Shown in pieces: positions 29,379 through 30,519 of a stretch of 31,062 nt of DNA (positions within the stretch are counted from its first letter, which is position 1; the number at the start of each line of letters is the position of its first letter). Where the stretch lies: IMG/VR virus record IMGVR_UViG_3300021960_000323, positions 1 through 31,062 of that record; one strand, written 5' to 3'. A program made the position numbers and the translations under genes. Under the pieces are notes generated by a model. That model did no database searches, had not been told where the DNA came from, and saw nothing but the letters and a program-made list of their open reading frames with translations. The DNA comes from a virus.

Positions 29379-29683
29379 TGGCTAAGAAGCATGACATTGT
29401 AGCCGAGCGTCAGGTTTATGCTAAGATCAAGGCATTAGAGAAGGAGAAGTTACGTAAGCCTGTGCCTACTGAGTTAACTCCTGATCAAGTATACATGAGG
29501 CTTTGTATGGCTAGGGATTGTTGGAGTAAGCGTAATGAGTTAGCACCCTCTGGCATTCCTTGGCCTGATGTATTCTTTAAGCACTGGGGTATAACTCTTC
29601 AGCAATTCTCCGAAGACGAACAACAGCGCCAGAAGGAAATACATGAAAGCCATAGTAAGGAGTCTGATCCTGAGATTCCATAG
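29378..29683 (+). CDS. Last gene of the rightward operon, hypothetical
   Basis: 101 residues: MAKKHDIVAERQVYAKIKAL, then PDQVYMRLCMARDCWSKRNE and WPDVFFKHWGITLQQFSEDE, ending in a charged tail. Helical and not recognised. No terminator follows on this strand. Its final 107 nt overlap, tail to tail, with the minus-strand gene that ends at 29577; both proteins look plausible there. Confidence 0.6.
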   Translation: MAKKHDIVAERQVYAKIKALEKEKLRKPVPTELTPDQVYMRLCMARDCWSKRNELAPSGIPWPDVFFKHWGITLQQFSEDEQQRQKEIHESHSKESDPEIP

Positions 29684-29909
29684 AGTCAGTAGGGTCTTTA
29701 GTAGATGCAATAGAGATACTGTCCTTGTCTTCTCTAATTAACCATCCAACAGTAAAAAGGGTGGGGCAAGTTGGTTCTTGCTCCCACCCTGCTGTTGCTA
29801 CTATGTCACGCCACTCTACTATTACTAGTTCTTTCTGTTCAATTTCGTCGGGCTTGGTAGTATCCACCCCAGAACCATCGGCACTATGAAGACTAACATT
29901 AAAGTCCAT
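29577..29909 (-). CDS. Conserved hypothetical protein of the late block
   Basis: 110 residues. The body ELVIVEWRDIVATAGWEQEP, then LFTVGWLIREDKDSISIAST and YYGFHVFPSGAVVRL has the style VEW-x-D...TxGW...TVGWL...DSI-x-I...YG-x-x-x-x-P-x-G I recognise from phage proteins, probably a small beta-barrel; no function is known. GGAG lies about 8 nt before the ATG. It overlaps the lipoprotein-like gene by 85 nt upstream and the plus-strand gene by 107 nt at its end. An intrinsic-terminator hairpin lies inside it at 29754-29789. Confidence 0.65.
   Translation of the reverse strand: MDFNVSLHSADGSGVDTTKPDEIEQKELVIVEWRDIVATAGWEQEPTCPTLFTVGWLIREDKDSISIASTKDPTDSMESQDQTPYYGFHVFPSGAVVRLRRIAEELYPSA
29754..29789 (-). 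terminator. Intrinsic-terminator-like hairpin inside a coding sequence
   Basis: On the minus strand, GGGTGGG-A-GCAAG (29789-29777), loop AACCAA and CTTGC-CCCACCC (29770-29759) form a 12-bp stem with one bulged A, directly followed by TTTTT (29758-29754). On the plus strand the T-tract is missing. It lies about 120 nt into the gene at 29577-29909, so it would truncate most transcripts of that gene unless translation, antitermination or read-through keeps it open. Confidence 0.6.
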
Positions 29910-30271
29910 CCGCCTATCTCCACTATTTTGTGTAGTAATGTAAAGAAATTATCAGGTGCCTTGATAATAGTCTGAGTCTTTTGGTTTGTTGTCAAAACCT
30001 CTGTCGCTACATCGGTCACAAAGGCACCCGTCATGGCTCCCAGTATCGGCGCACCTACACCCCCACTGATCGCAGTCCCAACACCCGCACCTATTGCTGA
30101 CCCTGTTGCTACTACTGTCGATTCCTTTAGACTCTGACAACCTACTGTACTGGCACTGATGACGATGGCGATCCAAAGATTGCGGACAAGATAGCCAATC
30201 CTGCTACGACTACGATTACAATCTTGATCCTTCGATCTAATGCGTTCCAAGTCTTTGTTATATTTTCCCAC
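29825..30271 (-). CDS. Lipoprotein-like membrane protein with glycine zipper
   Basis: 148 residues from GTG 30271. After a basic N-terminus, NLWIAIVISASTVGCQSLKE looks like a lipoprotein signal with Cys45 to be lipidated (lipobox STVGC, not ideal). Residues 52-80 are a glycine zipper (GSAIGAGVGTAISGGVGAPI then LGAMTGAF), which often packs in membranes. A terminal hydrophobic helix is GGWTLMLVFIVPMVLGWILP. This may be a lysis or membrane-remodelling factor. It shares its ribosome site with a 43-residue frame starting 2 nt earlier, which is unusual. Confidence 0.6.
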   Translation of the reverse strand: MGKYNKDLERIRSKDQDCNRSRSRIGYLVRNLWIAIVISASTVGCQSLKESTVVATGSAIGAGVGTAISGGVGAPILGAMTGAFVTDVATEVLTTNQKTQTIIKAPDNFFTLLHKIVEIGGWTLMLVFIVPMVLGWILPSPTKLNRKN

Positions 30272-30273
30272 AT
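30142..30273 (-). CDS. Tiny membrane protein overlapping the lipoprotein gene in another frame
   Basis: 43 residues from ATG 30273. The product MWENITKTWNALDRRIKIVI then VVVAGLAILSAIFGSPSSSV is a classic one-helix membrane protein with a Trp-rich start and basic edge. AGGAG lies about 6 nt upstream, better placed than for the GTG used by the longer frame, and the ATGTG allows both starts. Either both are made, like overlapping lysis genes of other phages, or one start is a shadow. Holin-like size, but no function is shown. Confidence 0.5.
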   Translation of the reverse strand: MWENITKTWNALDRRIKIVIVVVAGLAILSAIFGSPSSSVPVQ

Positions 30274-30282
30274 ATAATTCTC

Positions 30283-30519
30283 CTATTTGTTTTTTCTTTT
30301 TTTTCCGCTAGCGGTAGTAGACCACTTAACTTTCTTAGGCCCAGTTTTCTTTTTTGCCTCAGATTTTGATATGCTTTTGGCTACTTTTTTTGGGCGGCAA
30401 GCAGGGTAAGGACGTTTAGATTTACCTTTAGCAGTTTTCCTGCCACAAGGTTTACCAGTTTTAACATCTACCCATTCCTCACCAAACCATTTACCAAGAC
30501 CACCTTTACTTTTTGGCAC
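30283..30519 (-). CDS. Small lysine-rich conserved phage protein
   Basis: 78 residues from GTG 30519. The product MPKSKGGLGKWFGEEWVDVK then TGKPCGRKTAKGKSKRPYPA and CRPKKVAKSISKSEAKKKTG is strongly basic. The core GL-x-x-WF-x-EEWVD-x-KTGKPCGR...YPACRP is one I recognise in small virion-associated or DNA-binding proteins of marine phages; the two Cys may bind a metal. It overlaps the upstream small gene by 14 nt. Confidence 0.7.
   Translation of the reverse strand: MPKSKGGLGKWFGEEWVDVKTGKPCGRKTAKGKSKRPYPACRPKKVAKSISKSEAKKKTGPKKVKWSTTASGKKRKNK

Follow-up and report, generated by a model that had tools for sequence, protein, structure and literature searches.

The window, by which we mean the whole stretch of 31,062 nucleotides analysed here (IMG/VR record IMGVR_UViG_3300021960_000323, positions 1 to 31,062), carries on its minus strand two overlapping membrane genes, both of which are conserved: ORF A, coding for a one-helix peptide, and ORF B, coding for a lipoprotein-like protein in another frame, the start codons of which share the pentamer ATGTG (table 1). 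The interpretation that we favour, with a probability of about 0.6, is that A and B, nested and translated together, belong to an envelope module, probably for lysis, of uncultured marine tailed phages. According to this interpretation, ribosomes placed by a single AGGAG would start mainly at the AUG to produce many copies of A, and a minority of them would start at the GUG two bases on to produce fewer copies of B; a single site would thereby divide initiation between the two genes. B, a predicted lipoprotein carrying a membrane helix near its C-terminus, would likely bridge the periplasm in the manner of a unimolecular spanin (u-spanin), and A would be an inner-membrane peptide which, at a guess, is perhaps its holin-like or regulatory partner.

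Table 1. Position of the features discussed in the text, numbered along the window
Feature	Position	Strand	Remarks
Shine-Dalgarno AGGAG	30280..30284	-	common to both starts, with 6 nt separating it from the ATG and 8 from the GTG
ATGTG double start	30269..30273	-	ATG 30273-30271 (A) and GTG 30271-30269 (B)
ORF A, 43 aa	30142..30273	-	opened by ATG 30273
ORF B, 148 aa	29825..30271	-	opened by GTG 30271, in another frame than A
Alternative B start, codon 8	30248..30250	-	TTG here, ATG in some relatives; from the Trp9 codon of A
ORF C, 110 aa, VEWRDIVATAGWE...	29577..29909	-	in a different frame from B, whose 3' end it overlaps
Secreted TIM-barrel glycosidase-like protein, 346 aa	2887-1847	-	AlphaFold pLDDT 81

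The arrangement reported in an earlier note, with ATG and GTG offset by two bases, in two frames and behind one AGGAG, is confirmed on the sequence. The AGGAG overlaps the TAG (30285-30283) which closes the upstream ORF on the same strand, and because the two starts are so close in the branch to which the window belongs, one ribosome-binding site probably feeds both. The note had also placed the hydrophobic segments of the two frames at nearly the same position. Both frames do encode such segments, but these are staggered: the helix of A (about 30222-30175) is encoded just upstream of the signal core of B (about 30178-30140), and the DNA specifying the Val/Ile helix of A encodes an Arg/Ser-rich stretch in B. 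The stop codon of A then falls five bases before the Cys codon of the B lipobox. As ORF C overlaps B at the other end, the A/B/C cassette forms a chain of overlaps, and an ORF similar to C follows B in several relatives, including members of other branches. Upstream of A, between 30283 and 30929 on the minus strand, lies a series of very Lys-rich small proteins, two of which have weak, sub-cut-off similarity to DUF5872.

Relatives of B were collected in a first scan, which also used two patterns in the N-terminal part of the protein and gave 42 loci with 63-90% identity, and in profile scans with 226-240 relatives apiece, 80 per scan being retained; five contigs in bacterial MAGs were added. 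The resulting comparison set contains 166 distinct B loci with their 5' end. The suspicion that a base might be missing from the assembly is dispelled by the first scan: all 38 of its relatives in which the 5' end is preserved have ATGTG and both frames open, which rules out an assembly or sequencing frameshift. At 160 of the 166 distinct loci, a one-helix ORF of 22-75 aa resembling A lies in the same frame relative to B, and when ATG-initiated ORFs of 25 codons or more are counted, the frame of A has one at 155/166 loci, versus 5/166 for the other frame, taken as control. Apart from the two N-terminal patterns of the first scan, the loci were found through the mature part of B, and so were not selected for the presence of A, nor for the openness of B upstream of its Cys. 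Judged from these sequences, the nested A/B pair is much older than the clade of the window. Its carriers form a large group of uncultured marine tailed phages; the window itself encodes a terminase, a portal and a major head protein of tailed-phage type.

Both frames bear the mark of selection. When the A gene of the window is recoded synonymously, B stays open in about 5% of the trials, and over 33 A clusters the openness of B relative to such recodings gives a summed log10 P of -15.7 (about 10^-16). The hydrophobicity of B in the 12 residues before the lipobox (or the end of A) lies on average 1.18 SD above that of the A recodings across the same number of clusters. Conversely, the third codon positions of B in the overlap, which correspond to second positions of A, have a mean entropy of 0.23 in the window's clade versus 0.62-0.89 in the non-overlapping parts of B, indicating that A is constrained too. 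Frame control and recoding tests thus rule out a spurious A or a spurious B, and the earlier proposal of two membrane proteins from overlapping frames is borne out. That only one of the ORFs is real, the other being an accident or a product of sequencing frameshift, is a reading suggested by the view of a single genome; since more than a hundred independent contigs conserve both frames, we consider its probability negligible.

How is B translated? Any Trp codon in A reads as NTG in the frame of B, and an ATG followed by TGG yields the GTG automatically; the GTG by itself is therefore no proof of its use, since Trp2 of A supplies it for free. In the same way, Trp9 of A gives TTG or ATG at codon 8 of B, and Trp14 gives such a start at codon 13 in another branch. 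More telling are the synonymous sites of A at which a T would create a stop in B, which we followed from the GTG to the next B start in 65 ATGTG loci: T was found at 0 of 138 susceptible sites, versus 28% at comparable sites in single-coding B, with the qualification that the 138 sites are non-independent and represent 31 distinct states of clade, column, residue and base. Moreover, in two loci (L165 and L260) the GTG is the sole ATG, GTG or TTG available to B before the lipobox, non-standard starts being left out. This avoidance of stops after the GTG, together with the loci having the GTG only, argues that the codon is probably used, and we regard GTG 30271 as the probable start of B in the branch of the window, even if it would produce a signal of 44 residues before Cys45, which is long for a lipoprotein and counts against it.

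The main competitor is a reading in which both genes are real, with B starting at codon 8 (TTG 30250), or at codon 13 elsewhere, and the GTG being a by-product of Trp2. A signal of more usual length would result, and TTG or ATG is present at codon 8 throughout the window's branch, a second start of this kind occurring in most ATGTG loci; all these NTG codons come automatically with the Trp codons of A. Three further loci (L121, L123 and L126), in which A lacks Trp2, have no GTG and carry a B stop just downstream of the A start, so that their first B start is the ATG at +23 (codon 8), behind GGTGA, and this opens B; that a stop stands there where the GTG is missing speaks, on the other hand, for the use of the GTG elsewhere. 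Yet in the loci that possess a later start, stops in the B frame between the GTG and codon 8 or 13 are found at 0 of 125 sites, no later start exists in L165 or L260, and TTG 30250 is without a Shine-Dalgarno sequence; we therefore hold this reading to be rather unlikely. Production of B by -1 ribosomal frameshifting from A, instead of from a start of its own, is far less probable still. B does lie in the -1 frame of A, the stop codon of which comes just before the lipobox, but inspection by eye recognised no slippery heptamer in A, the codons of B directly after the GTG are free of stops, which a late shift would not require, and other branches have an ATG for B 8 or 11 nt after the start of A, or 7 nt before it.

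Returning to the initiation at a shared site, the AGGAG of the window corresponds to a DtoStart of 13 for the ATG and 15 for the GTG in the metric of PMC9841429; a distance of 13 from Shine-Dalgarno to ATG is found in 54 of the 65 ATGTG loci, a constancy which counts in favour of the GTG being used, and the 12/14 spacing in 3 of them. In E. coli reporters, AUGUG at 13/15 gave mostly the AUG product and little from the GUG, and clear dual use was seen at DtoStart 12/14 (PMC9841429). By this measure, AUG should dominate here. The idea that a single shared site would set a fixed ratio of A to B products, already present in the earlier note, is plausible.

The predicted A protein (MWENITKTWNALDRRIKIVIVVVAGLAILSAIFGSPSSSVPVQ, 43 aa) has a basic N-terminus, a single hydrophobic helix at about residues 18-33 and a Ser/Pro tail, with about 10 residues following the helix. 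Its orientation would be N-in/C-out according to the positive-inside rule, and its candidate roles are those of small holin, antiholin-like regulator and partner of B. Read from the GTG, B displays a basic N-region, a hydrophobic signal core, a lipobox TVGC, a glycine-zipper region, a C-terminal hydrophobic helix and a basic tail. The lipobox, called by pattern only, makes Cys45 (30139-30137), which follows TVG, the candidate for lipidation, and the Cys aligned to it is conserved throughout the family, in agreement with the lipoprotein-like character initially attributed to the protein. The C-terminal membrane segment, GGWTLMLVFIVPMVLGWIL (about residues 120-139), precedes the basic tail KLNRKN. 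In the AlphaFold model of mature B, the C-terminal helix covers residues 65-93 with block pLDDT up to 87, and the glycine-zipper region forms a helical hairpin of low confidence (pLDDT about 50).

In functional terms, u-spanins are defined by an N-terminal lipobox combined with a C-terminal transmembrane domain (PMC6139136), and B presents both features, the lipobox signal being recognised by pattern. Its topology would thus be that of a u-spanin, from which a u-spanin-like working, and a role as outer-membrane disruptor, may be inferred; we do not claim membership of a spanin family. Similarity with T1 gp11, a u-spanin (PMC6139136), extends to the N-terminal lipobox, the C-terminal membrane helix and comparable length. 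B differs in that no sequence similarity to T1 gp11 was found, in its ectodomain, modelled with low confidence as glycine-zipper and helical whereas the T1 gp11 family is beta-rich, in the extra Cys of most of its relatives and in the start that it shares with a nested gene. The extra periplasmic Cys is present in 119 of the 166 loci and absent in the window and 46 others; none of the 58 published u-spanins has it (PMC6139136). Searches with four B proteins found no homologues among isolated phages, no Pfam family scored above cut-off for B, PHROGs gave weak matches only, to unnamed entries, and a fold search of BFVD with B was uninformative, giving no match; a search for phage lysozymes in six records was negative and no endolysin was recognised, which counts against a lysis module.

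It is a serious, if less probable, alternative that dual translation is right and B is instead an inner- or outer-membrane lipoprotein with another role, for example superinfection exclusion, having A as its partner. The lack of any sequence or fold match to known spanins, the glycine-zipper predicted to be helical instead of beta-rich and the additional Cys of most relatives speak for it, as does the glycosidase-like protein of TIM-barrel type often encoded by the next gene. Against it stands the combination of lipobox, C-terminal helix and basic tail, which is exactly the published topology of u-spanins (PMC6139136), as well as the fact that relatives have genes for other small membrane or secreted proteins immediately before the pair.

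The genes around A/B deserve consideration in this respect. In relatives, the pair is preceded by further small proteins of membrane or secreted type, one with DUF6356 among them; at L362:12013-12216, this DUF6356 protein (PF19883) lies directly before A/B and the 3' end of its gene overlaps the start of A. L184 has an ORF resembling the DUF6356 protein. In about 35 relatives, the gene immediately following B encodes a homologue of the 346-aa secreted protein listed in table 1; the 346-aa protein has GH1/GH5-type matches in the PDB with low TM-scores, and invariant Glu/Asp, with no Pfam family above cut-off. Such neighbours would fit a lysis or envelope module, without proving it. Just upstream of A/B, five loci (L181, L184, L209, L215 and L311) encode an IscA/ErpA-like protein (GGGCSG...CGCG).

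The resemblance to embedded lysis genes of Rz/Rz1 type, which the earlier note had evoked, holds for the nesting and fails otherwise. As in lambda, two membrane-directed proteins, one of them a lipoprotein, are encoded in overlapping frames; but Rz1 starts in the middle of Rz, whereas here the short non-lipoprotein A occupies the 5' part of the gene for the lipoprotein, so that the nesting is reversed. An embedded Rz/Rz1 pair, in which an i-spanin with a periplasmic coiled coil would hold the o-spanin gene within its own, is rejected on anatomy: A falls far below the length of an i-spanin, and the longer gene is that of the lipoprotein B, which has a C-terminal helix. Closer precedents come from bacteria. 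E. coli has ambiguous initiation sites AUGUG or GUGUG, for instance in pqiA, tamA and narQ, from which both frames can be translated (PMC9841429); they share with A/B the two-base offset between AUG and GUG, the two frames and the single Shine-Dalgarno sequence that places both starts. They differ in that A and B are both membrane proteins conserved across a large phage group, and in the 13/15 spacing of A/B, weak for the GUG in reporters. Thermus rnpA-rpmH, the only fully nested natural bacterial pair cited as known, has nearly touching starts (AUGGAUG) and one initiation site (PMC9841429). It is likewise a gene inside a gene, but of housekeeping type and with two AUGs, in contrast to the AUG/GUG and phage envelope proteins of A/B. 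Dual initiation at AUGUG is therefore known, and what is new is a conserved phage variant with two membrane proteins; in our partial coverage of the literature, we found no published conserved phage case of AUGUG-nested genes. Ambiguous AUGUG initiation has so far been shown mainly by reporters (PMC9841429), and A/B would provide a natural and widely conserved case of it. B further draws attention to a large class of lipoproteins that phages encode together with a nested partner, to which annotated isolate phages and Pfam offer no match and unnamed PHROGs weak ones.

The two-base offset holds for the window's branch and not elsewhere, which excludes GTG+2 as a universal start: B starts +8 nt after A in the MDKW type, +11 in the MKEKW type and +23 in the MIDK type, and the MESLK type has a candidate B start upstream of A. 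With both products identified, such natural variants render the partition of ribosomes by touching starts directly testable. On the tree of mature B, which is based on a short alignment, the GTG+2 label requires 10 changes, at least four of them forced by well-supported branches. In a bolder reading, which we hold to be less likely than not, the phage group might use near-coincident starts in two frames to set the ratio of a holin-like peptide to a u-spanin within a lysis module, the offset having been repeatedly re-tuned with the nesting kept. Some 5' parts of MWEKFK type are joined to a mature B belonging to other branches, a sign that A and the signal of B may be exchanged together. In six loci (L225, L229, L231, L236, L239 and L248), the dual-coded 5' part appears to be linked to the mature B of other branches, as though swapped as one piece near the lipobox.
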